The notes below the pieces were generated by a model. That model worked only from the letters and a program-made list of their open reading frames with translations. It did no database searches and had not been told where the DNA came from. Positions 11,207 through 43,234 of a stretch of DNA of 64,000 bases are shown in pieces. Origin of the DNA: Owenia fusiformis (Eukaryota; Annelida; Polychaeta; Sabellida; Oweniidae); NCBI GenBank assembly GCA_903813345.2, contig CAIIXF020000004.1:19690477-19754476 (forward strand), given 5' to 3'. Made by a program: the position numbers and the translations under genes. Numbering within the stretch: position 1 is the first letter of the stretch; each line of letters begins with the position of its first letter.

Positions 11207-11212
11207 TTTATT
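11207..11212 (-). terminator. EMSY polyadenylation signal
   Basis: TTTATT on the + strand (AATAAA on the - strand) lies about 150 bases past the EMSY stop codon at 11360-11362. Confidence 0.5.
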
Positions 11213-11359: not shown

Positions 11360-12284
11360 TCACTGTTGCTGAGGCAATGCTGCCCAATCTTGCGTTGGAG
11401 ACTTATCATATTTCAACTTTTTAACATTAGGGCTCCCAACAGGAGAGATCTGGTGATGTCTATTGCTCCACTTCTCCATCATCTTAATGTATTCTATCTC
11501 ATAGAAACTGAACACCTCCTCCCCATCCTTCCTGGCGTCATGACCTGGGGGGTTATATCTGTAGCAGTTGTCTCGCACTAGTAACATGTCTTCGTGAAAT
11601 GCCTCAAAATTCTGGTACTGGCCAACCTGCAAGCGGAAATAATGCTAAATCCTGAGAACACTTGTAATGGTAAAACCCTGAAATATGGTGAAATAGGCAT
11701 ATTGTATTCTTAAAATACTCTGATAACTAGGGCTCAGACAGTTTCACAATTTCTCGGTTCGGTTTGATTCACAACATTGGACTTTTGGTTCTATTTTCAG
11801 TTTGGTTTTTCAGTTCTTATCAACCTTATGAAATTAAATCTTGAGACACCAGTTCAGGAAGAAATTAATAATTTTTGGTTTAAAATCATCAGGGCCTGCA
11901 GTGAAATCGTTAAGTGGAATCATAATTTTATAACTTCTTCATTATCAACAGGATTAGGACTTTCAAAATTTTTTATAATGTTTATTTCTATTTTTACACT
12001 GGAAATTCATCATTTCCCATTGTTTTCAAATTGTTTAATATTCTTTATTTTAATTGGAAATGCTTTTTCATATGCAGATGACTAAGCCTAAACTCTGAGT
12101 CTCATCTTACAAGACATTTACCTCTAGTTTTCTCTTAATTGTGCCAAAGTCCATGGGATTCTTGATTATTTTATAGTAACCAGGAGCTTCCTCTGGGTTG
12201 ACTGGTCTAGTGAACCATGAAGCTGCATTGATATCACCCTTGTCCCTGTTGATGCCTCTGTAGCGTGACACTCGTTGCAACAGC
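11360..12284 (-). other. Bromodomain at the EMSY C-terminus, coding exons 17-18
   Basis: Exons 12122-12284 and 11360-11626 encode about residues 949-1091. The order fits a bromodomain: helix Z (LLQRVSRYRG), ZA loop (SWFTRPVNPEEAPGYYKII, then KNPMDFGTIKRKL), helix B (NFEAFHEDMLLVRDNCYRYN), and helix C (EEVFSFYEIEYIKMMEKW). The Asn of YRYN sits where the acetyl-lysine-binding Asn is expected, and the shelf reads WFTRP instead of WPF. A basic tail (VKKLKYDK) ends the protein. Exon 16 ends GGWVRAALG and runs in phase into LLQRVSRYRG, giving a continuous helix, so this looks like one transcript, not a neighbouring gene. Confidence 0.9.
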
Positions 12285-15200
12285 CTAGAAAATGCAGCAA
12301 AATTACTTTTCATTGTGAACATCATTCTTAGCTTCTATGCATGTCTGTAATGAGTCACAATGCTGAGAAAACTTACACTGACTATTCCAAGCTTATTATC
12401 CCATCCAACAAAGTTTGGAGGATTATAGGGAACACCTCCATCCGTCCATCTGGGCATTAACTCAAATACCGTTGGCCTGATTTTGTTCATATTTTGTACA
12501 TATATGTGCTATGGGGGTAGAAGTTCTGCTGGAAAGCCAATTTTCAAAATGGCCACTCGTTTAAATTTTACATTAATTTAGGTACAATATATAAATCTGT
12601 AATAGCAATATGTATTAAATGTAAAAAAGTTATATAGCCTAGCAAACTAGAAAAACAGCAACTCCACGGAGTAGCAAATCCCACAGAACAAAACATATTA
12701 TGCTTTTTATCACAGGCTGGTATCGAAATATTTGTCCGCTGTGACGGAGCATGCTATTTTTCATAAAAACACTAAGAATACTTCACGATTTATTTTTTAA
12801 CTCATATGTTTCGTTATACCATACAAAATTACTTACTCCATGCAATGGATATATCATTTGCGGGTAACTTTCACTTCTGTTTGAAGTCCAATTGCGCTGG
12901 GAAGAAAAGCTATTGAAAATGGCGCCGGAGTATCATACTTCAAAATGTACCATTTCTTGTTTAACTTTTTAATGGCACGATATAGTGACACGATAATATT
13001 TACACATGGTTTCAGCATAACTATGAAGGTATAAACGAGATGTTGATGTATTTGGTCTTTTTAATTCTTTTATAAAAAATAATGTTTAATTTTTTTGTCC
13101 GCTGTGACGGAGCAGTTGCAAATGTGAACTGTGAAAATGCTCCGTCACAGCGGACAAAAAATATTAATATTATTTTTTATTAAAAAATTAAAAAGACCCA
13201 ATGCATTAATATCTCATTAATACATTCAGAGTTATGCTTAAAACATATGTTAATATTATTGTGTCACTATATCATGCCATTAAAAAGCCATTAAAAAGAA
13301 ATGGTACATTTTAGAGTTTGATACTCTGGCACTGTTTTCAATAGATTTTACTCCTAGCATTATTGGACTTCAAACAGAAGTGAAGGTTACACCCAAATGA
13401 TATATCCATTGCATGGAGTAAGTAATTATCTTTGATATAACGAAACATATGAGTTAAAAAATAAATCGTGAAGCATTCTTAGTGTTTTTATGAAAAATAG
13501 CATGCTCCGTCACAGCGGACAAATCTTTCGATACCAGCCTGTGATTATAGCTAGTGTAAATGTTGAAATGTTTGTGCACTTTGTGATAGAAGCATGAAAT
13601 TTGGCACAAAGTTAGTTTATACCATTGTGAACTAGGCATCATCATATAATATTTGAACCAAATCCGTTCACTGGTATATGAGTTATCAAAGATTATGTTT
13701 TTTATGAAAATTGGCTGCCATCTTGAAATTCAGCCGCCATCTTAAAAATTATTTCTTGAACAGAGCTACTGTGTCCCTAGGCATAATCATATAAAATTTC
13801 AACCAAATCTGTTCACTGGTATTTGAGTTATCAAAGATTATGTTTTTTACGAAAAATTGCCACCATTTTGAAATTAAGTGGCCATCTTGAAAAATTTTTG
13901 TTGAACATAGCTACTGTGTCCCAAAGCATCATCATATAAAATTTGAACCGAATTCGTTCACTGGTATTTGAGTTATCAAAGATTATATATTTTAACGAAA
14001 AATGGCCGCCATTTTGAAAGCAAGGGGCCATCTTGAAAATCTCTTTTTGTGCGAAACTCCTTTGTCCCTAGGCATCAGCATATAAAATTTGAACCAAATC
14101 CGTCAACTTGTATTTGAGTTATCAACGATTACATTTTTTACGAAAAATGGTGGCCATTTTGAATTGAGTGGCCATATTGAAAATTCCTTCTCGAGCAGAG
14201 GTCCTACACTCATAAGGCATAAGCCTATCAAATTTGAGTCAAATCCGTCAACTGGTATTGGAGTTATCGCCCAGACACACAGACGGATGAACGAACGGAC
14301 GGACGGCTTCTCTAAATCCCCCTCGAACTTCGTTCGGTGGGATAATAAATAAAGCTAGAAATGTAGATATTTAAGAAACCCATGGCAGCCATCTTGAAAA
14401 ATGGAGGCCTTTACTCGCCATTTCATGATTTTTGCTGTAACTTGAAAATTAGTGAAGCGATTTTGTTCATATTTATATTTCAGATTTTTTATTTTTTTGT
14501 GCAATAAGCCTGTGCCGTCTTGTAATTTGAAGAATTTCAGCCATGTTAATCTTAGTGAAAATAACATGGCAGAGAAGCATCCAAATATAAGAGGCCACAC
14601 ACTTTATAAGCCAAACTAGAAGCAATCCAAGATATACAAATGTCATTCATGTACAATATGAATATATTTTTCGAGATATTATTGCAAAATGATATGTGAA
14701 TGCATGTACTCAAAAGCGTGGCACACTGTTTTATGACGCTTTGGCTAGAAGGCGACCATTTTGAAAATGACTGCCATTTTAACGTGTTTTTATGACTTTA
14801 CAATAACTCAAAAAGTAATGGAGCAATTTTGTTCATATTTGACATGTGAATACTCATTTTAAATATGGCACACGTCTTAGGACACTTTGGCAAGTAGGTG
14901 GCCATTTTGAAAAATTTACTTGTGTGTGCAATTTTGTTTAAATTTTTGCTGTAAAGTGTAGCGATTTTGTTCATATTTGATATGTGAATACTCATAAGCA
15001 TGGCACACTGTTTTATAACACTTTGGCTAGAAGGCAGCCATTTTCACATGTGTTATTTTACGTTTTTACTATAACTCAAAAAGTAATACATGTAGAGTGA
15101 TTTTGTTCAATACTCATAAGCATGGCACACTGTCTTATGACACTTTGGCACGTAGGTACCCATTTTGAAAAATACAAGTATGTGTGTGATTTTGTTGAAA

Positions 15201-18200
15201 TTTTGTATGTGCCTACTTAGAAACCTATTACTTTCTTATGACAATTTAGCTAGTGAATGACAATTTCTATAATGATGGCCATTTTTATATGTGTTATTTT
15301 AAGCGCTGAAAAAGTTGTAGAATTTTGTAAAAATGCCAGCCATGGCAGTTCATTGGGATTTGCTATGCTTTGAAGTTGCTGTTAATTATTTAATGTTTCT
15401 GAAAATTGCACCTTTTCTCTCATTTATAATGTATACCTATAACTAAAATGCCTGTTTGTTTTATTCAATGATGAATTTACCAGGTCTGTACTTACCCTAG
15501 GGCAGCTCGCACCCATCCTCCAACACTTGACTGTGATGGACTCTCATCAGCTGGAATAGGGGCCTTTCGCTTCCTCTTCCCCAGTCTAACAGCATCACTC
15601 TCAGCAGTCCCAGAGATAAGGAATGATCCCTCTCCACCCCCTACAACATTAGTAAGTGGGAAATCCTTTTTACTGATTTTCCTGTTTATAAAACATACAA
15701 AACTCTCTTAGTTGGTTTTGGTAAATCCAGGGATCTGTTACTTCTGTACGCTCCTGAGTTTGTGAAGTGCTCTTAGCAGACATAGTGTTTATTGCTCATG
15801 ATCCTATTGAATTCAGATGTTGGATCTAGATGTGCTCTGCATCTCATTCCCTTGAAGAATGAGCCTTGAATCACAAGGCTTGAGCCTTGGATCTGAAATA
15901 TTTAGGTTGAAATCTGACTGAAAAGTCATATCTTTCCCTTGCGTGTAGTGCTCCTCAATTCCTTGCGGAATGTGCCAACGAGACACAAAGTCATTGCTGA
16001 TGTTGTTGTCTATGTCCGTATTTATGCTGGTGTAGGATCTGCTGAATTTCCTTGATCACTAGAGAAAATATTGCTTTGTAGCATATTTGAATTAGCCCTT
16101 TGAAATTGAATTGAATAGTCTGGAATTTGTCCATCCTCCAATGGTTCATTGTCATTATAATTCAATGTTGTGTTGATTGCACTATGTATGGGGAAATTGA
16201 GGACGATTGCATGTAAGCTAACTAACTATATGCAGTAGTTGGACAGGTCCAAGTTAATGTCATCAGTAAAGCCAGAGGACTCCATGATGAGATTGCAAAA
16301 TGAATCTAAGGCATATAATGAGAGGTGGGTATTTGTGTAGTAATACTGCAGTGTCATGAAAACATCCTATAACATACTAGTATAACAACAAGTGGGAATT
16401 CATGCAAAATACCTGGGAAAGAACTGAAACCTTGAGGAACTGAACTGTGCATTATTAAAAGATTGATATTCCAGTGAAATCCCTTACTGTGATTTTCCCT
16501 AAATAATGCTTAATAAACTATAACTCACAGTTATTACACATATTAATTATGGAATTCACATGGCCTCACCAAACAACAAACAAACATACAAACAAACAAA
16601 CAAACCTTCAGATGAGAGGTCATCCAACTTCTGACTGGTGTAACCTTCATAGATGTTAGAATCCACTCTCTCCACTGTCACTGCCCCACCCTGTTAGGAG
16701 AAAAGAAGAAGTTATTCATTTAAAACATAAAATGCCTAGAATTCTGATACACAAGCACATTGGTTGTATGTATGTTGAGAAAATGCATGAAACAGACCAT
16801 TGCACTCTGGTAATATTGGTAGTGAGGGCTAAGATGGTATGTGTTATCAGGAACTGTCAAAAGAACTAACTCTTAATTTTCCAGTGCTTTTGCAGAAAAA
16901 ATCATTGGGCACATTTTGAGAATTTGCCATACATCATCAGAAAGGTGAATATATTTTAGGAAAATGGTACATTACATAAGTGAATTTGCTGTTTGCAACT
17001 ACTTACTAATTTAGTGGCTCCCTCTTGTGTATGAACTGTCATCTGCTGACCAACTTTAGGTGCAGTGTTTAGCATGCTCATAAGAGTACTTCCTGTCTGA
17101 CTAGCTCCACCTATAGGTAAACAACCAAACCATTATGTCACCTACCTGCATATTCTGATTCATGTGATTACAGAGGATAAGGAATGGATAATATAAAGCT
17201 ATCGATATATGGTAAGTTATATGGAATACATATACGCAACCTTGTACAAGTCAGGAATAGCACTGGGGACAAACTCTGGAAACCTTCAAATCACAACAAA
17301 ATATTTGGCAAGTATGTAGTTCGTGAGTTCCGGTTTCAAAATATGATTACAACTTAAAAATTAATTGTGCCATTGCTGGGATATTCACAAATCAATTATC
17401 TCATTTAGGAAACGAGGAAAATTTTTCAAATGAAATGTATTTTCCTGTTTTTTTTGAGAAACCTAATCCTCACAATGGTGTCTACATCATTTAAAAGTTA
17501 AAGTTGCAGTATAAGTTTGGCTGAAAACTTATATCGAAAGCTCTCTCATGAGTATAAGAAAAACATTTCTTACAAAATAATAATTGCATAACTCTTGTTA
17601 TCCCATACTTAGTAGCGTTATAGGTAAATGACATGCGGGAATATAAGCGATATCTGAGGTGAGCGGATGATATATATATCACCCACTCATCAGCAATTCT
17701 CAGGGATTTCTTTCGGTGCTTTTTGAATTCCCGGGATATACTTTGGCTCTATTTGATAAATATTAATTTCATACACTGTTAAATGTTAAAAACTGTTGAG
17801 TTTAAAAAACAAAAATTGTTGAGGACTTTAAATTGAGATAAATATTCATGTTTTGATTTTAATTATTGTTTGTAATCATTACATTAAGGTTCCCTAACAT
17901 TCAATGCATATTTAATTCTCATAATCTACTGAGTATAGGATAAATCAGTTATTGAATGCTCGATTTTTGATACAGGGTATATCCCTCGGTAAATACAATA
18001 TATCAACCCTCGGTTCCTACGATCCCTCGGGTATATATATTGTATTTTCCTCAGATATAGGATACCCTTTATCAAAAACTTCCAATTAAATAACCTCTAT
18101 TTATTAAAAAGTAAAATTTCACCTTTGGAAGGGGACAATGCACTAGGTCCCCCTGGTGGGACTTTCTCCTCCTCTTCAATAAACTGAAATGGGTCAAGGT

Positions 18201-21200
18201 CAATTTGAGCCTGCGCAATAGCACTACTGAAGATATCAACGTTTTTACTGGATGATGATGCCATAGGTAAAGTGACCACTCGTGGTTGAGATACACTTGG
18301 TGTGGTCACAGTAACAGCTGAGGATTGTGGGAAAAACATGCCTGTCTGGGGGTCCAGCTCACCACTGGGTTTATTCTCTATTATGATGCCCCCCTGTTCT
18401 TGTTGCTCAGACTGAAACATTCAAATACAATTCATTGAAGCAGTAGGTTTATTCTCTATTATGATGCCCCATGTTCTTGTTGCTCAGACTGAAACATAAA
18501 AGTGATTTCATGAAAATGTTCACTTACTGGAGTATTTTGTTCCATGATAGCATTCTGTATGATCTTTAAAGTTTCTTCTTTAGATGCCCCCTGGCCTGAC
18601 TGATGATTCAGCAGCTGGGCAGCTTGCTCTGTAAATATAATTAGATGTTAAAGATTGCAAGCAATCTTACGGAGGCCTCGTAGGCTTTTTTGAACATTTA
18701 AAGGTCAGCCAAAGGTCAAATCTTAAATACAAGGTCATATACGAACTCCAGGCATCTTGTAGATGATTTTTAAAAAAAATTCAGCCAAAAATATTGAAGT
18801 GTAGTGTCAGGATTTGAGAAACTTAAAAAAAACTTAGATTAGACCTAGATTTTGACCTTTGACCTTGACCTAGATAAAAATTCCTTTCCCGCCAAGTTCA
18901 GCTAAGGTCCCTAGTAGGTGCATATAGTAGATAGTTAAAAGGTAGTTGGAAGTAGGAGAAAAAGGTTAAGGAAGAATAAATAAATAAAGAAATAAAGAAT
19001 AATATCTATAAAATTAATAGGAATAGTTCGGGCCTCCTAATAATAAAGAATAATAATAAATAATATCTATAAAATCTATAGGAGGCCCCCCGTTGGGGCC
19101 TCCTAATAAAATTTATGTATAATACAACAATATCTTATAAATGAAGAGATTTTTCAATTAATGGAACTATATGAAAAACTGATCTCCCCACCATACCCAT
19201 GGCATATTTTGACAATAAAAGCAATTTCTCCTGAAACTTCAAGAAAATCAATATTTTTTGGTGCTTCGTTGACAGAAATAGGGCTGAAATCACTACATAT
19301 TCAGTGATGTTGATACAAACTTTCAAATTTGGAATGCAGTCAAAATAATTTAGGCAAAATAACCAGAACAGTATCAAATTCTCTCATTCATTCTCATTCA
19401 GGTATGAGGATCACAGGATCTTGAAACTTCTCAATGTTTATAAGTGGTATCCAGTTGAATGAGCTCTTTAAATTTGGAGGAAATAAAGAGTAAATAAACA
19501 TTCACATTTGTGTTAAAATGAGAGAATCTGATACTGTTCTGGTTATTTTTGCCTAAATTTGACATTGCGAAAGATTGTAGAGTACTAGTGCACAAATGAG
19601 ATGCGTATCAGATGGGATGTGCTGAGGTAAAACACATGCCCAAGATCCAGAGAAGCAAACTACCCACATCACTGCACAAATTCCATCTGGAGTCAATGTC
19701 AGTTAATTTTATTCTCAACACGACCGATACCATGTTAATTTGAATACCCAAAAGCCATTTTATTTTTGCTTTTTTGTCTTTTTAATGCAGAACAATAATT
19801 CATCTATCTATAAATATAAGCCAGAACACTAGTTAGTCACCTAGTGTCAGGACTTCTCCCTGTTCCAGTTGGTACTGTGTCCCAGTCAGCTCCTCATCTA
19901 GCACCTGCGTCACAACCTTAGCTGGGGCCCCAGATTGCATTTCAAGGAGTGCCTTGATGGCGGAATCACTGGCACTCTCTTGTAATTCACTGCCACCTGG
20001 TGAATGAGTTTGGAACTGAACTGGTGTCTCATCTTCATCGTACTGGAACCAGGTGTTACGCTGTGCTGCACTCACTGCTGGCCCTATCAATACAATAATT
20101 AAAACTTGTGAAGAAGTCATTTCCACTTGTAAATACCTGAACATATACATATATTATACAGCTTGCTACATTTTGCCCTGCATCCAAGTGACAAGCAGGA
20201 TGAAGCAGAATGTAAATTATGAACACAGTACAACACTGATCCCTAGAGGGTTGGAGACACACATAAAACACTGATCCCTGGAGGGTTGGAGACACACATA
20301 AAACACTGATCCCTAGAGGGTTGGAGACACACATAAAACACTGATCCCTAGAGGGTTGGAGACACACATAAAACACTGATCCCTAGAGGGTTGGAGACAC
20401 ATATAACACTGATCCCTAGAGGGTTGCAGACACACATATAACACTGATTCCTAGAGGGTTGGAGACACACATAAAACACTGATCCCTGGAGGGTTGGAGA
20501 CCTACATATAACACTGATCCCTAGAGGGTTGGAGACACACATATAACACTGATCCCTAGAGGGTTGGAGACACACATATAACACTGATCCCTAGAGGGTT
20601 GGAGACACACATAAAACACTGATCCCTAGAGGGTTGGAGACACACATAAAACACTGATCCCTAGAGGGTTGGAGACACACATAAAACACTGATCCCTAGA
20701 GGGTTGGAGACACATATAACACTGATCCCTAGAGGGTTGCAGACACACATATAACACTGATTCCTAGAGGGTTGGAGACACATATAACACCAGGGGATAA
20801 TGAGAGTGTTCTCCATATCAACAACAGAGTCAATATATGCCTTGTGATGCAATGGGCTTTGCTTTGTCGCAATATGTATCTTCAAATTTTCCCAGCAATA
20901 ATATATCACCACAGCACGACAGTAGACTTGAAAGGGGATTCTTTCTTCCTTGAAAATTCTGCCACTCACCAATCAACAAGAAACATAATTTATGCTCATC
21001 TAAACCAAGCAACATAGATCTCTCCTCTACAGTTTCTAACAGTATGTTTACCTCACTTTAAGCTTGCACCTTAACACTTACATATCATCTCAATAGACAG
21101 CCCTCCCTTAATTCCCAACCCTGCAGTTGCACCTTAACACTTACATATCATCTCAATAGACAGCCCTCCCTTAATTGCCAACCCTGCAGTATGTTTACCT

Positions 21201-24200
21201 CACTTTAAGCTTGCACCTTAACACTTACATATCATCTCAAAAGACAGCCCTCCCTTAATTGCCAACCCTGCAGTATGTTTACCTCACTTTAAGCTTGCAC
21301 CTTAACACTTACATGTCATCTCAATAGACAGCCCTCCCTTAATTGCCAACCCTGCAGTATGTTTACCTCACTTTAAGCTTGCACCTTAACACTTACATGT
21401 CATCTCAATAGACAGCCCTCCCTTAATTCCCAACCCTGCAGTTGCACCTTAACACTTACATATCATCTCAATAGACAGTCCTACATTAATTGCCAACCCT
21501 GCAGTTGCACCTTAACACTTACATATCATCTCAATAGACAACCTTCCCTTAATTCCCAACCCTGCAGTTGCACCTTAACACTTACATATCATCTCAATAG
21601 ACAGCCCTCCCTTAATTCCCAACCCTGCAGTTGCACCTTAACACTTACATATCATCTCAATAGACAGTCCTTCCTTAATTCCCAACCCTGCAGTTGCACC
21701 TTAACACTTACATATCATCTCAATAGACAGCCCTCCCTTAATTCCCAACCCTGCAGTTGCACCTTAACACTTACATGTCATCTCAATAGACAGCCTTCCC
21801 TTAATTCCCAACCCTGCAGTTGCACCTTAACACTTACATATCATCTCAATAGACAGCCCTCCCTTAATTCCCAACCCTGCAGTTGCACCTTAACACTTAC
21901 ATATCATCTCAATAGACAGCCCTCCCTTAATTCCCAACCCTGCAGTTGCACCTTAACACTTACATATCATCTCAATAGACAGCCCTCCCTTAATTCCCAA
22001 CCCTGCAGTATGTTTACCTTGTCGTGTTGCAGATTCCTCCACAGTTGCGGGTGAACCTCTATCTGAATTAGAGCCAGAGTTACTGTCTGGGTAAATTCCT
22101 GCAGCTTGAATTAGGTCTGCTAGTAGGGACGATTTACTGGCATCTATATCTGACTTCTGAACAAGAATTTGCTGAAATATCAAAAGAATGTCCTTTTTAT
22201 TATAGTTTTTATACTATAAACAGAATTTCACAACCTGGTTGCACACAGTATTGGAGAGAGCATCAAAATAGAGTTATTTTATGGAATAAACTAGCACCTA
22301 GATGCTCAAAATATTATGAGTTCAATCCCAATTCAGATTGGAACTTCTGAGAGCTTGTATATGATTTTGAAAAAAAAATTGGTCAATTTGAGGCAAATTG
22401 AAAAAAGAGGTTCATAAAAACCCAAAAAAACACCGCTTTATACTATTTATTTGTAATTGCTAAAGAAGTAAGGAGTTGCGTCGAAATATCAAGTTATGGA
22501 ACAACAAGTTCATTCTTAGAGAGAGTGGGGGTCGATGCAAGTTCATGTGTGTATTGTTGATTTTTTTGGCCCCAGTAATAAAATATTAACATACAATTTT
22601 GTTATAAGGAGGGGAGAGAGGCCATAACCACAACTGTTTATACATTAGTATCACAAAACCATTTTTATTTACCAAGCAGTTTGTTGATCTATTATGCTTT
22701 ACACAGGACTAAGGACTAAATTGAGGTCATGAACACCTAAAGCAAGGTACCATAGAGATATTCACTAAGTTGATATGAATTGATCAGTCACTGCGCTGGT
22801 GATCCACTCGATTACACTGGTTACCGAAACGGTTCGTTTTGGTAACAAAATGTCGGAACATCGAAGGTATGATTTTCTCATTTTTCCTTATTTCACACGT
22901 TGTAAGCAGAATTCCCACAACATTTTATCACAAACATGTATCAGTATTATATGTTTAGAAAATATACATATTTGCGAACAAATAGTTCAGAAGACAACAG
23001 GATCGTCTATTTAATTCCTCACTTAAGTTACTACGCGGTAGTATCTTTTCGGGACGTATCGAAACCACTCCGTCCCGAAAAACCGTTAATTTGAATTTAA
23101 AACCTACCCCAGTGTTTGAAAATCAAGGATTGTGAGTCTTACACTTCACTGTTTTTGTTCAAACTTATTCCGTACAAAGCTTCACAGAAATACCTTTCAG
23201 TCGATACATTGTTTTCGTGTACAAAGTACCTCGTTTTAGCGGCGTTTTGGTCCCCAGCTGTGAGATAAAGCAAATATTCATAACTTTCAACTGTAAGTCA
23301 AGTTATCTCGCCAGTCTTTTACCCATTCTCGCCCATAATTTCAGAATGGACTCCCATTACAACCTTCCATCGCTACGTTTTGATTTTTGGGCATCAAACG
23401 CAGCAGTTTCTAAATCATCCACACATCTCTTCAAATTTGACCAATACGTCCCGTCATCTTCCACTACGCCCCGCCGAGTCTATCACTATACACGTAGAGT
23501 TGCATTCTAAAACAATTTGTCCATCGATATGTCCGTTTGTAGGTTGCCATTGTCGATTCTAAATACCAATCGGATTGTGTTTTAAGATTTATCCATTCTT
23601 GTCCATTTTCAATATACCTATAATAGGGTGGTCCAAAATCTCCCTAAAATTTATATTTCCCAATATTGTAATATAAAGATTTTAATTACTGAACAATTGA
23701 AAATATTTTTAAGAAACGTTTAAAGTGCCCTATCCTTGAAAAAATGTTAAAATGCGAAAGGATGGGTGATGTCAATTATATTATTTTCAGCATAACGTTA
23801 GAAACATGTATCATTTTATATGGTACACGTTTCATAATGTAAGCCAATGAAATCATACAGAAGAAAGGTTGACACACAACAGTTAAAATCTTTATATTAC
23901 ATTATCAGACCAAGTCAGTAGATGTTGTTTATATACCAATTAGTGTTGTATGATGATGCATTCTTTATATGAATCTAGAAACGTTTTTGTGCCAATATTG
24001 CTCAATTTTTATTACATCTCCGTTATTTTGAAATTAAGCGTGGCAAAGTTTCCCGATGGATTTAGCTAAAAAAGTGGTGCCTGTAGGGTTATTGAAAATC
24101 ATGCATGATGAAGAAAAAAAAAATATTCCTGAAATACAACAGTTTAATTTTGAGTTATAAACCATTTATGAAAACGGCATATTTGTCAAAATTACCAAAA

Positions 24201-27200
24201 CTTCAAGTGAGACGCGTGGCAAAATTTCCAAGGGGTCTAGTATCATTCTGATACGTATTACATGTTTATGTTTAGTGCATAAAATTCATAGCCAGATCAA
24301 TAATTCGGAGAGAATACGCTGGACGATAGAATATTAAAAACTATAAAAACATTCTTCATAGAATTAAGCAAATAGTGTTATTATCATTTAAGTAGTAACT
24401 GCATATGTTTAAAACCACTCTGTTTAAATACAGGTAAATAAATAAATATGATGCAATGAAAATTGAAGCTTTCTGTCGAGAGCAATAGTCATCACAATAG
24501 TATAGAACCGAAGTTCAATACTGGGGCATATTTCAAATTTTGACGTTCCATATTCTTACCATGTAAATATTGGGAAAGTTCGGAAAGCGAACATACTCAT
24601 GTTATATATCAAAATCTTCGTATAGGTACCCTCTAAAACCCCATTTGTATATTTTACATGGAATTTTTCATTTTAGAGCATTTCAGAACGTCCTTCGTTG
24701 GTCAAAACGTTAGAAATATGCCGTCACGCGTAACATTTTAGGAGCGCGCTATTTTTCGAAATGATGTAGAATCATTATTTTTTCATCAATTTTGATGAGA
24801 CCGGTATGAATCACTTCCTGAGACAATGATCTTTATTATGGCGTCATTAGTTTTAAGGTAACAATGGAATGTGACGCTGATTTTTCAACTTCAAACAAAA
24901 TCCAAAGGCCGTCACGCTGGGTATTTTGACGACCCCTAGGAAAGCAAAATGCCATTTATTTTAGAATTAATTACTTTTAAAGGCTGAAATTAAAATTAGA
25001 AACAAGGTTTTGGCTAAAATTAATAAATCTGAATAAAAAATATTAAATTTCCTTCAAATTTCTTAAATATCAAATGATATGTAGGGTACGAAAAATGTCC
25101 CATTTAGTATTTTTAGCTTAAAAATGCGTAAACTTGAAATCCAGCCATCACGTGCACGCATTAAAATTAAGAAATATATCAAAATAAAAACATTTTAGAA
25201 ATAGGTTTTTAATATATTTTGATCGTGGAAAATTTCAAACATTTTCAAACATGATAACTTGTCAAACGATGCGAAAGAAAAAGGTACAAAAATGTCCCAT
25301 GTAGCTTTTTGACGTCTTTTCATTGAGAATTCTACAGAAAAGCGCAATTGTTCATCACTCGTGACGTTACAAAGTATGCCCCAGTATTGAACTTCGGTTC
25401 ATAGCGTTTTTTCTTTTACATGTTACTTTTTGTACATCATTGATTGATCCGCTCTAATCTGCCCTCGGCCGATAATTCATAAATTATTTATGTTGAACAT
25501 TAGCAAAACAAGATTCCAAATTTTATTGTGTTTCAAACCAGACACTTGGTTTCCTCACAAAATCAAATACAGGACAATTACATATAATTAAAGTTAAAAA
25601 GCAACATCTTCACAAACATTTAAATTATCCATTTTATGCAATCAGTTATAGTTATACTCCGTATGTATGCTAAACGTAAGACTGGTGTTAAGAATCGACC
25701 AAGGCAAACCTATGTAAAATTACACAACGATGAGCAAAATGTTTTAGAATACAACTCCACGTTTGTGTAGTCATGGACTCGGCGGGGCGTAGTGGAAGGT
25801 GACGGGACGTATTAGTCAAATTTTAAGAGATGTGTGGATGATTTAGAAACTGCTGCGTTTGATGCCCTAAAATCAAAACGTAGCGATGGAAGGTTGTAAT
25901 GGGAGTCCATTCTGAAATTAAAAGCGAGAATGGGTAAAAGACTGGCGAGATAACTTGACTTACAGTTGAAAGTTATGAAAATTTGCTTTATCTCACAGCT
26001 GGGGACCAAAACGCCGCTAAAACGAGGTACTTTGTACACGAAAACAATGTATCGACTGAAAGGTATTTCTGTGAAGCTTTGTACGGAACAAGTTTGAAGA
26101 CAAACGGTGAAGTGTGAGACTCACAATCCTTGATTTTCAAACACTGGGGTAGGTTTTAAATTCAAATTAACGGTTTTTTCGGGACGGAGTGGTTTCGATA
26201 CGTCCCGAAGAGATACTACCGCGTGGTTACATAAGATCCAACTGTTGCCCAAATTTCAAATACAATATGTTCAATGTACAACATTGATTTTAAATACAAA
26301 TTTGATGAAGTCTTTGCCATTTCAGATTAGTCTGCTTGTTACTGTTTATATTTGACACAGTCTGTCTGAGTGGTCACATCACTACTGTTCTAGTTGTACA
26401 TAATAGAAATTATAGAAAGTATAGAGTGTAACATAAAATGTATAGAAATTATTATTGCAGTTGTCAATGAATTTTATTTTTGAAGTGGCTTTTATTTTAA
26501 GGCAATCATTTTCAAACACGATCAGCACTTCCGAAGTAGGGTGTTTTATAGGCCAAAAAATGTTTATATATCATTAATAGATATATTATTTTATTATATC
26601 ACTGTTATATTCTCACTCTCTGATTGGTTAATGTCCTACATGTGACTAAAAAATAACAAGCAATATTCATCGGAAGTCACTTGACTTCCATTGAATATCA
26701 TATGATATTCCTCATTCAGGATTAAGTCCAGCGTAATTTCAATTTTATGTTTCCCTGGGAGTGGTTTGTTATGATTAATAAAACATCAATAGTTTGTTAT
26801 TTCATAGATGAAAATTATGAAATAATTTGATTTATGAACTGAATGAAGTTAAGAGCATTGAAAAGGAGTTTGAAATTGGTGTCGTAAAGCTTAAGCTTGT
26901 TTTGCTTATAATAGCTTAATTAGGTGGATTTGCTTAATTAGCTAATCTGGTTATATTTCTTCATTCGTTGCTTTTGCGGCACCTTTGCAGACTCCTTTCG
27001 ACAAAAATAGTAATATTTGAATGAAGCAGAATAAATATGAGTAATATGAAATATGAGTAATATGTATAGAGTAATATGAAATATGAGTAATATGTAGAGT
27101 AATATGAAATATGAGTAATATGTAGAGTAATATGAAATATGAGTATATGTAAAGAGTAATGCAATTACAGTTCGTTACTTCCAATTCAGTCCAGTTTTCG

Positions 27201-30200
27201 AGGCATAGCTTCATATGTTATACTTGAATTGAAGAAAACATACCTTTTTAGTGTACTGTGCTGTATTTTCTGTGTTAGGCTTGTGTCCCGTCACTCTAAT
27301 TGCAGTTCTCGCAGCTGGTCCCCTACCTGGCTCATGTTTCTGTATGAAGCTACCAAACTCCTGCAAATCAACCTAGAGTTATATGCCATGATCAGAAATT
27401 AACAAAAGAACATTATGGTCAAATTATGCTCCACAAAAAGAGGAGAAATAGCAAGTACATGCTATTCAGAACTTAAACCATGAAATAACTGGATTTTGAT
27501 GATGGACTGAGCCACTTCTACAGATGATAATGTTTTTGATACAGGGTTCAAAAAACACTTTACTGGTTTTCAACAATAAGACAGCAGTTTACTATAATAC
27601 AGTATACTGTAAAACTTGAGATACACTAGTATTATACAACAGTATTTCTAAATGTGTTTTCTATATTTTATTCAAGTTTTGTATGCAATTATAAAACAGA
27701 CGACGTGAAAACAAACTAAGTAAAAATCAAAGAACTAATAAAACATATTTCATGGGTCTGTCTCTACTAAAACGTTATTACCTTTTCAAATGGGCTGGTA
27801 GTAGTAGAGGCTGCCTTGGCACTGGGTGGGGTAGTCTGCCCTTGTTGTTGCTGTTGTTGTTGCTGCTGTAATAGTTTCTTGCCCTGTGCCTTTTGAACCA
27901 CAATTACATTAGGTTTAGAGACACTGGAAACACCTCTAGCTCCTGTTGTAACTGTATAATAATAATACAATCAACTATTACATTAGGTTTAGAGAATATT
28001 TCTTCTAGAGCAGAGCTCCTATCCTATGTCCCTAAGCATCAGTATATAAAAATTGACTACAATCTGCCAAGCATTCGAGTTATCAAAGATTAAATCTTTT
28101 ACAAAAATGATGGCCATTTTTAACTGACCAGCCATATTGAAAATTCCATACTGAAAACTCCAAAATTGATTGGAGACCCCGGACACACCTCTATGGTTTA
28201 AATCAACTATATCGAGACATTTTCAAAGCAATTACTCTAAAACTTACTTGTTTGTCCCCTGATTCCAGCAACTTGGAGAGTTTTTGGGTTAACTGTAACA
28301 ATATTTGTATTGGGTCGTGAAGTAACAATACTCGTATTTGGACGTGATGTTGAAATATTAGTGTTTGGGCGAGATGTTGTTGTAGCTATAACTTTATTTC
28401 CATGAGTTGTAATACTCAATACTTTGCCCGCTTGAGTGGCTGGAAGTAAAAGATGACTGCACTGAGAAAACAAATTTTAGGTTTTAAAATAATGCAAGGT
28501 TTAACACAACAAAGACTTAAGAGTCTTAATAAATCTATTTAGTTAAAATAAGGACCAATTTGGCAAAAAACAATAGTATACTTATCAAGATATTTTCTTT
28601 TCCATAGGATTAATTGTTTCATGAAAGATATATACTTAAAATTGTTACAATTGTTCTTATCAATTCAGAACACACAATTCCACACAATTTTCTACAAGCA
28701 AACAGTTTGATATAAGTGGTAATTGCAATCATTCCAAACTATGAATATAAAATCCTTACAAGATGCTTTTGCTCCTCCTATAGTAATTCCAGATGATGAT
28801 GACTGACTTGTTACCATGACAATAGGATTCCCACTAGGAGGCTTGGGTAAAATCTTGCTTGATGATGGCAAACTTTGTGTAATAATCTTCATAGAGCCTT
28901 CTTGTTTGATCTGTATGGTTGGCTTTGAGACTGACTTGATCTGAATGCTTTGTAGGTTAGGATGACTTGATGCCATAGAGGAGAGTCTATTATGTGTGCC
29001 AACAGGTATAACAATGCCTCTTGTTTGCTGGAAGAAATCAGTCTTATTAGGCAATTGGTAACTAAACATGATGTTCAACATCATTTTGTTTTCTAGACTA
29101 GACTGGGAAAATGGAATGAGACTTTTCATCTCTTTAACTTGATAAAACAAGCTCACTCAGTTTGTTTTTCTCAATTTGTTGGATGATGTCTATTGGATTC
29201 ATAATATTCTAGTGTATTGTACGTTTCAAAATTCATTATTTGGAAAGTGTTGGCCAAAACTTGTTGGACATGGCTCAGGTCTGCTGCAAATTAATTTGAG
29301 GATGTTATAGCACAAATTCAAAGTGGCCATAAGAGATGGCATTGAGGCATATCAGCATATCTAACTCAGCTAACCTTTGTTGTGGTGACAGTCTTTGGAC
29401 GTGGTTTTCCATATGTTAATGTATTGCCTAAATAAGTTGTTGTACATGTCGCCACGGCAGAAGTGCCAACTGTCACAATATTTGATGCGCTAGAGCCAAT
29501 CACAATTGGGCCCTTTGTTGTCCCAGGGGTTGACTTAACAACAGGGACAGTGAGAGATTTTTGAAGTATGTTTGGTGTGCTGGCCCCTGATCCTGACACC
29601 AATATCACCTGAAACAATGGGAAATGTGAGACACTACAATTTTATGACATGAAATAGGAAAACAACCTTAAAATCATGTACATAGCTAAGACAAAAATAA
29701 ATTTGGCAATCACAATCACCCAAATCTGTTTGATTAATGCATTGTTATAATGCATGGTTATTATTTCCAAATGGATTTAAAGAGAGGAGATCATGGTTAT
29801 AATGCATGGTTATTATTTCCAAATGGATTTAAAGAGAGGAGATCATGGTTATAATGCATGGTTATTATTTCCAAATGGATTTAAAGAAAGGAGTTCATGG
29901 TTATAATGCATGGTTATTATTTCCAAATGGATTTAAAGAAAATGCATGGTTATTATTTCCAAATGGATTTAAAGAAAGGAGATCATGGTTATTATGTATG
30001 GTTATTATTTCCAAATGGATTTAAAGAAAGGAGATCATGGTTATAATGCATGGTTATTATTTCCAAATGGCTTTAAAGAGAGGAGATCATGGTTATAATG
30101 CATGGTTATTATTTCCAAATGGATTTAAAGAGAGGAGATCATGGTTATAATGCATGGTTATTATTTCCAAATGGATTTAAAGAGAGGAGATCATGGTTAT

Positions 30201-33002
30201 AATGCATGGTTATTATTTCCAAATGGATTTAAAGAGAGGAGATTATGGTTATAATGCATGGTTATTATTTCCAAATGGATTTAAAGAGAGGAGATCATGG
30301 TTATAATGCATGGTTATTATTTCCAAATGGATTTAAAGAGAGGAGATCATGGTTATAATGCATGGTTATTATTTCCAAATGGATTTAAAGAAAGGAGATT
30401 ATGGTTATAATGCATGGTTATTATTTCCAAATGGATTTAAAAAGGAGATTTTGGTTATTATGTATGGTTATTATTTCCAAATGGATTTAAAGAAAGGAGA
30501 TCATGGTTATAATGCATGGTTATTATTTCCAAATGGATTTAAAGAGAGGAGATCATGGTTATAATGCATGGTTATTATTTCCTACAACTACAAGACAACA
30601 TCGTGCCAGTTAAAGAACCTGAGTCATATCTAGACATCTCAGAACATATCATAGCATAACATAAGCATTCTTTTAGTATTCAATTTGGAATATAAGCTCA
30701 CCTTCTGTGCCTGAGATACTGTGGTAGAACTACGAGCTGGACTTTTAGTAAATGTGATCTTCATTGGGGAGATTCCTTGTAAATTGCCACTACTTGCTGG
30801 AGTGAATTTAGTTCCTGTTGGCAATGTGTTGGCACGTGACACATACATAGCTTCAGTAGAATTACTTCTTTTCTTCTTCTTATGGATATCCTCTTCTTCA
30901 GTATTTAGGCCACCTAGACAAACATTTAGGAATATTTTAGCAACGTTTACATTAACATATGATAATACATGGAGATGTACACAACATACATTCTTTTAGA
31001 TTCTCCACTAAGTGCAAAATGTGTCAATGTCTGGGGCGATGGATAATAGAAAAGTAAAAATAAATCAACTAGAAAATGGCAACTCCACAGAGAATCAAAT
31101 CCCAACAAACACTATAACATATATGAATCTGTATTTGTCACAAAAAATATAAATATCAGACACATTAGAGATATATCAGAATTTCAACCAATTTCAAAAG
31201 CATTTGGATGACCATTTAAGAATTTTAAAGGCACAAATAATAAAGACAATTTGAATTTTCTGAGGCACAAATCAGGAACACAATACCAAAATAGTGATCT
31301 GCCTTAAATTTCCTTTCATTTATTTTGAGTATAATAAAGCTATACTTTACTCCCTTCAATTTGAGTATAACATAGCCATACTTTAAAGAGAATAGAAAAT
31401 TATTGCGAAATCTAACATAAGCCGGCCATTTTGAATTTTACGAGGCCAAAATTACAAAAACGATACAATATTTGCAATCTACTCTAAATTGCCTTTCATT
31501 TGAGTATAGAAATCCACTTACCCTTAATATGTATAGAAACCCACTTACCCTTAATATGTATAGAAATCCACTTACCCTTAATTGTATAGAAATCCACTTA
31601 CCCTTGATATGTATAGAAATCCACTTACCCTTAATATGTATAGAAACCCACTTACCCTTAATATGTATAGACATTCCACTGGGAAGTACAACCACATTAG
31701 AAGTTGGGCTACTTGGTCTTGCTTTACCACTGAATGGCACCACATTTGCATTAGTTGTAGGGACAGCATTCAGGTCTTTGTTTCCTGTCTGTGAGGGATT
31801 TGGCATCACAAAGTTCTTCTCCGCTTGGATATTTGCCAGATGATTTGCAGTCAAAGTGAATGCAGTCTGTGGCACAAGGCGAGGCATCAAAGGAATCAAA
31901 CGCCTTCCTTCAACCAACCATTCAGAGTCAGTGACTGGTCCAGACATACTGAAAAAGATTTAGAATGGCTGTTTACATGTGTTACTTTACTAGTTCAATA
32001 TTGAAAGTATTTAAACAATTCAAACCAAATTCTACAATAACAACTACTGCTTATTTATTACAAAATGGTGCAAAAATCAAGAATAAATCATATTGCGAAA
32101 TTTCAATATTGGTAAACATTATGCAAACTTGCTCTTACTTGTCTGCGATTGTTGTAAGTTTCTCATCATTGATAGCACGTCTCACTTCAGCTCTATGTCT
32201 CTCTGTGGATATACTGAAAAGAACATTCAAATCAACTGCATCTTACTTTAATGCTACATTAAATGCTACCTTCATAAATTATAATGTACAATCATAATCT
32301 AAAACCTACATGGTTTCCTATTTTATTTCACAAATATTTACATATTGTGAAATCTTGATTCCATCTTTGGCATGCTCTTGTGCCAAATATCTCAAAAAGA
32401 ATGTCCAGAATTCAGTCTTCAGCAAGTGAATTCAATAATCTATAGTTTACCAATAATGAAAAAGCAGAAGGAATTCATAGGAATTCTGTTCTCCTTCAGA
32501 GGCATGTTGTAAAAGTATAGATGCTTGTCTATACCATTGTTATAACTTAAGCATTGAATACTCTACGGAAAGAACAAAATATTTTACCATAGCAGAGAAA
32601 GGTTGCATTTTTGTATCAACTTGTACTATTAAACAATTTTGTACTTAGAAATATTATTTAGAATCAAAAATTTGAGTCAAAAAAATGTCAAAGTTAATTT
32701 TCACCTTAATTTTTAGGTAATCCTCTATGTGTTGATAGAGTCCACATCTGACCTTAATGAACATTGTAGTTCATATTATTTTCTTCGTTTGGTTAGATGG
32801 GATAATAATGAATGTGGCTGAAACTTTGTGATAAATACCTGAAGAGATTCTGAGCATTTTGCAGGAATGACTTTTTTGCACTTGTCAAATCACCCTGAGC
32901 CCGTAGAGCAGACACCAATGAAGAGTAAGCCTCTAGCTCTAGTCTCCGTAACACCCTCTTTGAATCATCACGTGTCATATCCAATAATTTAGGCCACACC
33001 AT
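11360..33002 (-). CDS. EMSY: EMSY-like transcriptional repressor with a C-terminal bromodomain
   Basis: Eighteen coding exons in transcript order: 32839-33002, 32139-32213, 31656-31948, 30702-30913, 29375-29608, 28760-29027, 28248-28439, 27782-27951, 27244-27360, 22018-22171, 19841-20083, 18528-18628, 18123-18411, 17007-17110, 16606-16690, 15496-15640, 12122-12284, 11360-11626. All junctions are GT-AG and keep phase; the total is 1091 residues. The start ATG (33000-33002) has an in-frame TGA just upstream. The ENT domain (LLDMTRDDSKRVLRRLELEA, then STERHRAEVRRAINDEKL and PLMPRLVPQTAFT) is EMSY-specific. Next come a basic segment (HKKKKRSNS), Ser/Thr/Val-rich low complexity, three RPNT repeats, a Gln run and ELDPQTGMFF, also an EMSY motif. 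Residues from about 948 form a bromodomain. EMSY acts in the SIN3/HDAC-KDM5 complex and binds BRCA2 in vertebrates. The bromodomain is unexpected from the vertebrate protein. Confidence 0.92.
12710..13544. mobile_element. 835-bp foldback MITE with near-complete palindromic arms
   Basis: The ends TCACAGGCTGGTATCGAAA and TTTCGATACCAGCCTGTGA are inverted. The arms continue almost to the centre, where TTGTCCGCTGTGACGGAGC meets its complement across a loop of about 25 bases near 13115-13140. Flanking TTA at 12707-12709 and 13545-13547 is a likely 3-bp target duplication. The same GTCCGCTGTGACGGAGC motif also recurs near each tip. It is nested in the element at 12393-14350. Confidence 0.85.
13630..14265. 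repeat. Diverged tandem repeat, about 145 bp, four to five copies
   Basis: Each unit reads GCATCATCATATAAAATTTG, then CAAATCCGTTCACTGGTATTT, GAGTTATCAAAGATTA, GGCCGCCATTTTGAAA and a TGTGTCCC end. Copies start near 13630, 13780, 13925, 14070 and 14215. Confidence 0.8.
14700..15260. repeat. Diverged tandem repeat in EMSY intron 16
   Basis: Four copies of a 120-150 bp unit with GTGAATACTCATAAGCATGG, CACTGTTTTATGAC, CTTTGGCTAGAAGG and GGCCATTTTGAAAA, near 14700, 14860, 14990 and 15115. Unequal unit lengths and mismatches point to an old array. Confidence 0.65.
18436..18500 (-). repeat. Partial duplication of the EMSY exon 13 acceptor region
   Basis: This segment repeats 18365-18420 with few changes: it carries a second TTTCAG acceptor and the first codons of exon 13 (SEQQE) within intron 12. 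A small change then turns the reading frame to a stop (CAT GGG GCA TCA TAA). Use of this upstream acceptor would end the protein early. Confidence 0.85.
18650..19115. repeat. Repeat-like segment with GGAGGCC ends, EMSY intron 11
   Basis: GGAGGCCTCGTAGG near 18671 and two or three GGGGCCTCC or GGAGGCCCC copies near 19030 and 19080-19105 bracket an AT-rich block of AATAATATCTATAAAAT repeats. It may be a degraded element. No gene is visible. Confidence 0.4.
19347..19560. repeat. Foldback sequence in EMSY intron 11
   Basis: AATTTAGGCAAAATAACCAG followed by AACAGTATCAAATTCTCTCA near 19348-19387 is inverted near 19505-19558 with one or two mismatches. The loop is about 115 bases. Confidence 0.75.
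20230..20795. repeat. 35-bp tandem satellite, about 16 copies
   Basis: The unit is ACACTGATCCCTAGAGGGTT followed by GGAGACACACATAAA, in EMSY intron 10. Copies alternate between ATAAAAC and ATATAAC subtypes, and a block of several units seems itself duplicated. Confidence 0.95.
21041..22015. repeat. 63/84-bp tandem array abutting the EMSY exon 10 donor
   Basis: The unit carries CACCTTAACACTTACATATC, CTCAATAGACAGCCCTCCC and CCCAACCCTGCAG. Most units are 63 bp. A longer form adds TATGTTTACCTCACTTTAAG. The array runs directly into the true donor of exon 10 (GT at 22016-22017), and the longer units copy the intron side of that donor (GTAAACATACTGCAGGG on the - strand). Confidence 0.92.
23023..26234. 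mobile_element. 3.2-kb DNA element with 490-bp terminal inverted repeats
   Basis: The left arm 23023-23513 (ACGCGGTAGTATCTTTTCGG near its tip) is inverted at 25744-26234. The tips end in three mismatches around GTAAC, so the exact boundary and target duplication are unclear. Both arms contain short ORFs that are the same arm sequence read in both orientations, not separate genes. The interior is AT-rich, has several CGTCACG motifs and no recognised transposase. It carries a second inverted-repeat element at 24505-25400. Confidence 0.85.
24505..25400. mobile_element. Nested 896-bp inverted-repeat element
   Basis: GAACCGAAGTTCAATACTGG at the left is exactly inverted at the right (CCAGTATTGAACTTCGGTTC). 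ATA flanks both sides, a possible target duplication. It lies inside the 3.2-kb TIR element, so it is younger or part of a composite. Confidence 0.75.
27030..27155. repeat. ATATGAGTA / TGTAGAGTA minisatellite
   Basis: Four to five copies of a unit of about 28-30 bp (GAGTAATATGAAATATGAG, then TAATATGTA), 90 bases past the exon 9 donor. Confidence 0.85.
27995..28165. repeat. Fragment of the 145-bp repeat family in EMSY intron 7
   Basis: TCCCTAAGCATCAGTATAT, GAGTTATCAAAGATTAAATC and GATGGCCATTTTT match the unit of the array at 13630-14265. Confidence 0.7.
29745..30582. repeat. 52-bp tandem satellite, about 16 copies
   Basis: The unit is GGTTATAATGCATGGTTATT, ATTTCCAAATGGATTTAAAG and AGAGGAGATCAT, in EMSY intron 4. 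The short ORF across it is the repeat read in frame over three units. Copies differ mainly at AGAGAGG/AGAAAGG and TAATGC/TTATGT, with one unit shortened near 29940. Confidence 0.95.
31505..31672 (-). repeat. 26/27-bp tandem repeat made of the EMSY exon 3 splice donor
   Basis: On the - strand the unit is TCTATACATATTAAGG followed by GTAAGTGGATT. Six consensus GTAAGT donors occur, with GT at 31654-31655, 31627-31628, 31600-31601, 31574-31575, 31547-31548 and 31520-31521. The unit covers the last 16 coding bases of exon 3 and the first bases of its intron. The three most upstream donors are 27 bp apart and in frame. The fourth unit is one base shorter and shifts the frame. Confidence 0.95.
31656..33002 (-). 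other. EMSY ENT domain, coding exons 1-3
   Basis: Exons 32839-33002, 32139-32213 and the 5' part of 31656-31948 encode roughly residues 1-100. The all-helical ENT domain dimerises in EMSY; plant ENT proteins share it with Agenet modules. The split codons rebuild exactly: AG plus T gives Ser of SISTERHR, and AA plus T gives Asn of DNMSGP. Conservation with human EMSY is close to residue-for-residue in this part. Confidence 0.93.
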
Positions 33003-42515: not shown

Positions 42516-42748
42516 TATAACAAAACATATGAATTAAAAATAAATTGTGTTGTCTGAGTTTTAGTGATTTATGGAAAAAAGCATTAAGCAGAATAATCTT
42601 GTGATCGCACCCTATGAGTAGGGTCATCTTTAGTATGTATAACCTATGTGTATTTAAATGTGAAAGATCAACAACATAAATTAATTTATTGTATTAATTA
42701 ACTTATCTCATTGAATTTTCAGGAAAAAACTGTTGCACATTGGTAGAA

Positions 42749-43234
42749 ATGGATTTACGGAAGTGTGGAATACGATTTGATTCCCCAGCTATTGTCATCA
42801 CATATATCAAAAAGGATTCTGGGAAATTACATCGCAGGACAATGCCATTACGGAATTTCAATAAACATTCAAATATTAAAAAGACAACTGAAGAATTGAA
42901 AAACAACCCCCGTCATAAGCAGTACCTCGAAAAAATAAGTATAATTCAGTTGGAAAAACTCATTGGAATTATACAAGATAAATTAAAAGGAATATCTCTA
43001 AAGAAAAGTTTAGAAACACACAAACAGCTGGAAACTGTTGATCCTTCTGAAGACCTCAATAAGGTTGATGATGAAACTTTGCGCATCAAAAAAGCTGTAA
43101 TGGATACAACTTTTGAGAAAAATCGAAAAAAAGCTGATGACCCTGATTTTCAATATGATCTTGAGGTTGATTTTGAGAAAGATAATGCCATGGAAACTAT
43201 TGAGTGGGATGATGAATCAGACCCAGACTTTTAA
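42749..43234 (+). CDS. CEP19: CEP19, centrosomal protein of 19 kDa
   Basis: A single coding exon of 161 residues, close to the roughly 163 of human CEP19. Diagnostic stretches: KCGIRFDSPAIVITYI, RRTMPLRNFNKHS, LKNNPRHKQYLEKISIIQLE, DPSEDLNKVDDETL, FEKNRKKADDPDFQYDLEV. It ends acidic (WDDESDPDF). I chose the ATG at 42749 over the upstream TTG-started frame because MDLRKCGIRF lines up with the human start. A TTTTCAG acceptor at 42716-42722 places the start in a second exon, preceded by a 5' noncoding exon, perhaps near 42177 where ATGGCGGATCTG occurs. CEP19 sits on mother-centriole appendages and at the ciliary base, where it recruits RABL2 and helps load IFT-B. Low-complexity TE sequence separates it from EMSY. 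Confidence 0.95.
   Translation: MDLRKCGIRFDSPAIVITYIKKDSGKLHRRTMPLRNFNKHSNIKKTTEELKNNPRHKQYLEKISIIQLEKLIGIIQDKLKGISLKKSLETHKQLETVDPSEDLNKVDDETLRIKKAVMDTTFEKNRKKADDPDFQYDLEVDFEKDNAMETIEWDDESDPDF

Follow-up and report, generated by a model that had tools for sequence, protein, structure and literature searches.

An EMSY Gene of the Annelid Owenia fusiformis That Very Probably Encodes an ENT Domain and a Bromodomain in One Protein

Introduction

Could the EMSY protein of an annelid carry its own reader of acetyl-lysine? Breast and ovarian cancers show amplification of EMSY, a member of SIN3/KDM5 complexes. To our knowledge, the EMSY of humans and other vertebrates has no bromodomain. In a stretch of 64,000 nucleotides from Owenia fusiformis (hereafter the window; contig CAIIXF020000004.1, positions 19,690,477 to 19,754,476), a sequence-only reading had nevertheless identified an EMSY gene whose last exons appeared to encode such a domain. 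If EMSY has an acetyl-lysine reader of its own, a direct hypothesis arises, namely that the eraser complex is guided by the very mark that it removes. Known recruiters, such as ETS-1, account for single targets and not for a general preference for active promoters.

Results

Structure of the Gene and Its Reading Frame

Eighteen exons on the minus strand, running from 33002 to 11360 of the window, join into a single open frame of 1,095 residues, whose 1,095 codons close with one terminal stop, the TGA at 11360. All 17 introns of the spliced EMSY model are GT-AG and in phase. The product begins with an ENT domain and an EMSY-specific segment; a long middle part rich in Ser/Thr leads to a basic stretch and to the C-terminal bromodomain. 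The features of the locus, in window coordinates, are the following:

Exon 1, 32839..33002, minus strand: start codon and first half of the ENT domain (Pfam ENT 41.8 bits with the exon frame alone)
Exon 2, 32139..32213, minus strand: second half of the ENT domain
Exon 3, 31656..31948, minus strand: EMSY-specific segment after ENT, including RRLIPLMPRLVPQTAF, within the stretch present in human chain 2fmm_E
Exon 4, 30702..30913, minus strand: from the spliced model
Exon 5, 29375..29608, minus strand: Ser/Thr-rich middle region
Exon 6, 28760..29027, minus strand: from the spliced model
Exon 7, 28248..28439, minus strand: from the spliced model
Exon 8, 27782..27951, minus strand: poly-Q run
Exon 9, 27244..27372, minus strand: from the spliced model
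Exon 10, 22018..22171, minus strand: from the spliced model
Exon 11, 19841..20083, minus strand: from the spliced model
Exon 12, 18528..18628, minus strand: from the spliced model
Exon 13, 18123..18411, minus strand: from the spliced model
Exon 14, 17007..17110, minus strand: from the spliced model
Exon 15, 16606..16690, minus strand: if unspliced at 16605, a stop follows 16 codons further on, a possible bromodomain-less ending
Exon 16, 15496..15640, minus strand: basic stretch GKRKRK and what appears to be the beginning of the first bromodomain helix (GGWVRAALG)
Exon 17, 12122..12284, minus strand: end of the bromodomain aZ helix, ZA loop (GYYKIIKNPMD) and aA helix
Exon 18, 11360..11626, minus strand: bromodomain aB-aC, NCYRYN with the acetyl-lysine Asn 1032, C-terminal tail and TGA
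Candidate poly(A) signal AATAAA, 11207..11212, minus strand: about 150 bases 3' of the stop codon

The sequence-only reading had placed an ENT domain and a bromodomain in one frame, and its coordinates and frames were borne out, with two Pfam domains on the joined product. The splicing that it proposed also holds: exon 16, ending in WVRAALG, runs in phase into two bromodomain exons (15640-15496 to 12284-12122 to 11626-11360). Its description of these two exons as a full bromodomain is right for the core, which includes the acetyl-lysine Asn, but the first helix apparently begins in exon 16.

Identity of the Gene

Searched with the whole product, Pfam returned an ENT domain at residues 15-83 (77.0 bits, E 1.2e-21, cut-off 28.5) and a Bromodomain at residues 973-1043 (80.6 bits, E 8.1e-23, cut-off 21.7); these E-values exclude chance for both domains. 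Residues 7-137 aligned with the human EMSY chain 2fmm_E at 182.9 bits (E 3.6e-53), and the alignment spans RRLIPLMPRLVPQTAF. We take 2fmm to be the complex of EMSY with HP1, and the segment after ENT is presumably the HP1-binding region, a putative assignment here. Both the ENT domain and the EMSY-specific segment after it, which the alignment follows through residue 137, are present. Given the 183-bit match of exons 1-3 to human EMSY, the minus-strand gene is, as judged from its sequence, an EMSY orthologue and not a distant ENT protein, so the earlier identification is upheld.

A search of the 498-Mb genome for the ENT family, which weak matches and any in withheld stretches could escape, gave two matches, both of them exons of the EMSY gene, and no second ENT locus. 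Plant EMSY-like (EML) proteins carry an Agenet/Tudor part. The Owenia product has neither an Agenet/Tudor nor an ET domain in Pfam, which up to E 1 lists ENT and Bromodomain alone, and the plant EML type is thereby ruled out.

Features of the Bromodomain

Aligned with BRD4, the EMSY bromodomain has GYYKII opposite DYYKII and NCYRYN opposite NCYIYN, and it keeps PMD and the Tyr pair of the ZA loop. The Asn that the sequence-only reading had named as acetyl-lysine-binding is confirmed by this alignment as residue 1032, the last residue of NCYRYN. An Ala stands where BRD4 has its gatekeeper Ile (the Ile of NKPGDDI). We assume that the aligned Asn, the ZA-loop Tyr and the gatekeeper position have the functional roles that they have in BRD4. 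The domain is likely to be an acetyl-lysine reader.

Could the fold have ceased to read acetyl-lysine and serve instead as a docking surface? Some bromodomains do not bind acetylated histones, and the Ala at the gatekeeper position would fit such a change. We nevertheless consider it unlikely, since the domain retains the Asn, both ZA-loop tyrosines, PMD and the NCYxYN motif.

Across the junction between exon 16 (GGWVRAALG) and exon 17 (LLQRVSRYRG), there appears to lie the first helix of the bromodomain. In the alignment with domain 3 of PB1 (21.2 bits), the first aligned residues are AALG, from exon 16, whereas the Pfam match begins later, at profile position 13.

Linkage of the Bromodomain Exons to EMSY

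Do the bromodomain exons belong to EMSY or to a neighbor? The linkage was assessed from the frame, the splice sites and the lack of an in-frame ATG in exon 16. Splice sites were scored by a leave-one-out procedure against all GT and AG sites of the minus strand of the window. The donor and the acceptor fell in the best 3.0% and 2.3% for intron 15, in the best 0.4% and 1.7% for intron 16, and in the best 4.7% and 7% for intron 17; these scores lie within the range of the remaining EMSY introns. Among the 17 introns, intron 16 ranks first for its acceptor and shares first place for its donor.

Codon bias per codon was highest in the joined frame for exon 16 (0.58) and exon 17 (0.18), compared with a median of -0.43 for 26 open windows in introns. 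Exon 18 showed no codon bias (-0.01, with 0.12 in another frame), and in exon 15 the bias scarcely separates the frames (0.30 versus 0.32). The junction between exons 15 and 16, taken alone, would be in phase by chance in one case out of three.

Neither exon 16 nor the open stretch above it, back to the stop at 15710, contains an in-frame ATG. Exon 16 therefore needs an upstream exon, and the next coding exon is exon 15 of EMSY. Since the bromodomain apparently begins its first helix in this ATG-less exon, the bromodomain is most simply part of EMSY. On this evidence, EMSY and the bromodomain exons very probably form one gene.

Alternatively, the bromodomain exons might be a small gene of their own just downstream of EMSY. 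In-frame ATGs do occur just upstream of exon 17, at 12325, 12322 and 12313. From them a frame of two exons opens through exons 17 and 18, and formally this could encode a short bromodomain protein apart from EMSY. Within intron 15, moreover, six ATG-led mini-exons could feed exon 16 in phase as first exons, one of them with a good donor (7.2). A start codon separate from that of EMSY, which the sequence-only reading had set against its own claim, thus exists in so far as these three ATGs stand in an open frame with exons 17-18, but exon 16, itself without an ATG, joins in phase, has good splice sites and coding bias, and apparently holds the start of the first helix. No second copy of the EMSY bromodomain was found in the genome. 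We regard a separate gene as quite improbable.

Another alternative is that the locus gives two products: besides the long form, which includes the bromodomain, a short one would end within intron 15. The reader would then be optional and regulated by splicing or the choice of poly(A) site. Beyond exon 15, read-through runs into its stop 16 codons on, and intron 15 has an AATAAA at 15793; in Xenopus, EMSY occurs as a short form in embryos and a long one in adults, albeit of different make-up, in the available part of its description (PMC3122151). On the other hand, the AATAAA sits in a decayed repeat (15780-16330) and may be meaningless, and the splice sites of intron 15 score well. A short form of this kind seems rather unlikely, and the one-gene reading, with the bromodomain in the full-length product, is followed below.

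Family and Origin of the Bromodomain

From where might the bromodomain have come? The next best bromodomain match in the same genome, among the 21 matches listed, has 39% identity at 50 bits, and the domain is therefore not a recent duplicate. Since the genome has no close paralogue, it is less likely that the putative reader was captured recently from within.

Among single-domain PDB chains, the best matches were 9tsm ("Bromodomain protein, putative"; 67.8 bits), BAZ2B (64), BAZ2A (61) and BRD2 (60), with no gap in score between bromodomain families; chains with several bromodomains ranked above the single ones by summed score (PB1 127.9, BRD4 101, TAF1 81). Exons from the same genome served as controls. 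The CBP exon scored 124 with p300/CBP and at most about 54 with other single-domain chains, and the BRPF exon scored 88 with BRD1, 81 with Peregrin and at most 56.5 with the others; by summed score PB1 came first for both (129.8 and 124.2, respectively). A third control, which we take to be a BRD8 exon, showed no family separation, as for the EMSY bromodomain. The lack of separation therefore shows only that there is no close solved relative, or that the query is short.

The highest identity of the EMSY bromodomain, 48%, was common to human BRD4 BD1 (63 columns), the BET BD1 of the same genome (52) and a TRIM-like domain of the same genome (48). For a tree of the bromodomain against BRD families, a check that the sequence-only reading had put forward, 35 rows were assembled, 3 short ones were dropped and 32 were used over 68 columns. 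The rows include neither the pieces of locus L028 nor bromodomain 1 of L025, and a PB1 piece of L012 and one piece of L021 are also absent; the labels of the own-genome rows are tentative, except for CBP, BRPF and KIAA2026 and for the rows that grouped with human BRD4 and PB1. The EMSY bromodomain was nested in none of the sampled families and branched outside them, a placement with weak support (78.9/66). Pattern searches for relatives in a collection of viral contigs (4 and 6 matches) and in one of genome contigs (43 and 148 matches) gave no confirmed relative; these collections are described as viral and prokaryotic and therefore have no bearing on animal evolution.

Membership of the BET family does not fit. 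The EMSY bromodomain shares the NCYxYN motif with BET bromodomains and is 48% identical to BRD4 BD1 over 63 columns and 43% to BD2 over 67, but the protein has one bromodomain and no ET domain by Pfam, its ZA loop is two residues shorter, and the weakly supported tree puts it outside the BET branch.

Human BRD10/KIAA2026, like Owenia EMSY, is a long protein with a bromodomain. Another bromodomain protein is ZMYND11, which we take to be the same as BS69. As BS69 is bound by mammalian EMSY in the available text of one report (PMC3122151), and the 48% top identity includes BET domains (human BRD4 BD1 and the own BET BD1), one might suppose that EMSY was fused with, or is identical to, the BRD10/KIAA2026 gene, or that it captured a bromodomain of the BET or ZMYND11 kind. 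However, the Owenia genome has a separate locus at C6:4.667-4.671 Mb in which a bromodomain exon is followed by the KIAA2026 helical domain:

L026, G000:C6:4666000-4669500: locus of the BRD10/KIAA2026 type, in which a bromodomain exon precedes the KIAA2026 helical domain

BRD10/KIAA2026 thus differs from EMSY in having its own locus and its own helical domain. Identity with it was rejected, as this helical domain is absent from the EMSY product and present at C6:4.669-4.671 Mb. Exons of the ZMYND11/8 MYND type lie elsewhere in the genome (3 matches), and neither the PDB chains nor the tree assigns the EMSY bromodomain to a family. We therefore hold a fusion, identity or capture of this kind to be very improbable.

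Repeats in the Introns and Other Features of the Window

Several introns of the gene contain repeated or inserted sequence. An ORF-like stretch in intron 15 (16225-15813) was considered as a skipped exon or alternative C-terminus and rejected, being a decayed copy of a repeated element with 52 DNA matches and 13 protein matches, each count including itself. The 12 other protein relatives have open frames of 220-673 aa (at least 650 aa in 9 of them), one end of the element recurs in inverted order, and several copies span about 5.5 kb. With its long open frames and inverted recurring end, the family resembles a DNA transposon that was active recently.

Intron 9 holds an insertion (23022-26235) flanked by 415-base inverted repeats that are 96% complementary and 2,271 bases apart. 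CpG observed/expected is 0.9-1.4 over 26500-22501; in the other 1-kb steps it is 0.0-0.5, except for 0.84-0.85 at 14500-12501. The insertion is probably a young element that still retains its CpG. The donor of exon 3 lies inside a 27-base tandem repeat (31504-31680, 6.6 copies), several copies of which contain GTAAGT; since the unit keeps the frame, alternative exon 3 donors could add 9-residue repeats. Large tandem arrays also occur in EMSY introns at 29740-30582, 20223-20787 and 21064-22009, with main units of 52, 35 and 63 bases.

Elsewhere in the window, an open frame on the plus strand (42698-43231) matches CEP19 at 176.9 bits over the full Pfam model. On the minus strand, an open frame of 947 codons (46687-49527) has no Pfam family above the cut-off and may be one large exon from a protein yet to be characterised.

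Discussion

What might a bromodomain do in EMSY? The sequence-only reading had set the protein in a SIN3 and KDM5 context, and loci for SIN3, KDM5 (PLU-1) and PHF12 were found in the same genome. Three matches to the BRCA2 helical domain lie at C2:30.22 Mb. Probably, the full-length product of this EMSY orthologue ends in a bromodomain that holds the SIN3-HDAC/KDM5/PHF12 complex on acetylated nucleosomes. Owenia EMSY would sit in this complex, as in flies and mammals, and its bromodomain would anchor the complex to acetylated nucleosomes, mainly those of active promoters; the deacetylase and the H3K4 demethylase would thereby be placed at their substrates. In species with a bromodomain-less EMSY, recruitment would proceed via partners and sequence-specific factors. 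The step from reader to targeting of the eraser complex is one that we infer.

The available texts on fly and mammalian EMSY bear on this role. Fly EMSY, like KDM5/LID, binds mainly SIN3 220, the large isoform, and no adults result when EMSY is knocked down ubiquitously (PMC6242963). As far as that text goes, SIN3 on polytene chromosomes is unchanged after the knock-down (PMC6242963), and EMSY is therefore not a general targeting subunit in the fly. The mammalian protein is described in part of another report as a member of a KDM5A/SIN3B/PHF12/GATAD1/MRG15 complex; the KDM5A/EMSY complex occupies promoters high in H3K4me3, and its occupancy is tied to the activation of a subset of genes (PMC9309374), so the label "repressor" may be too narrow. 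EMSY recruited by ETS-1 represses miR-31 with KDM5B, according to the accessible part of a third report (PMC3988886).

In the open-access literature on EMSY, ENT and KIAA2026, to the extent of the texts available, no protein with both an ENT domain and a bromodomain was found, and UniProt or InterPro may already list one; the texts that name both "ENT domain" and "bromodomain" describe them, in the available parts, in separate proteins. These separate proteins meet in other systems. In Arabidopsis, GTE4, which has a bromodomain and an extra-terminal domain and a strong affinity for acetylated H4, binds EML1/2 according to a commentary (PMC11749275). There an acetyl-lysine reader and EMSY-like proteins act together, as the two domains would in the Owenia protein, but the plant pair consists of two proteins in trans, whereas Owenia EMSY would be one chain. 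An ENT protein has likewise been placed in the HAT2/Bdf3 complex of trypanosomatids (PMC9236257; PMC8559703) and near BDF5 in Leishmania (PMC9279504), in the available portions of these reports. Bromodomain proteins and an ENT protein thus share one complex or neighborhood in these organisms too, although on separate chains and with an acetyltransferase rather than a deacetylase.

The pairing in trans in plants and trypanosomatids makes a fusion in cis plausible. From these analogies we would suggest, tentatively and as a possibility short of likely, that ENT and an acetyl-lysine reader are an ancient functional pair, on separate chains in plants and trypanosomatids and on one chain in Owenia and perhaps in the animal ancestor, with the reader lost from vertebrate EMSY. 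A gain in the Owenia lineage is the alternative that the sequence-only reading had set beside such a loss. If this were true, the EMSY complex would have begun as a reader-guided machine coupling acetylation and H3K4 methylation. An EMSY with its own reader would also suggest seeking a bromodomain partner that vertebrate EMSY now uses in trans.

Compared with vertebrate EMSY itself, the Owenia protein shares the ENT domain and the adjoining segment (182.9 bits to 2fmm_E), and both genes have many exons, 21 coding in Xenopus, in the available part of its description (PMC3122151), and 18 in Owenia. The domains and sites mentioned in that part for the vertebrate protein are ENT and the HP1 and BS69 sites (PMC3122151). 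The vertebrate protein is thus described there without a bromodomain, whereas the Owenia protein very probably has one at its C-terminus.
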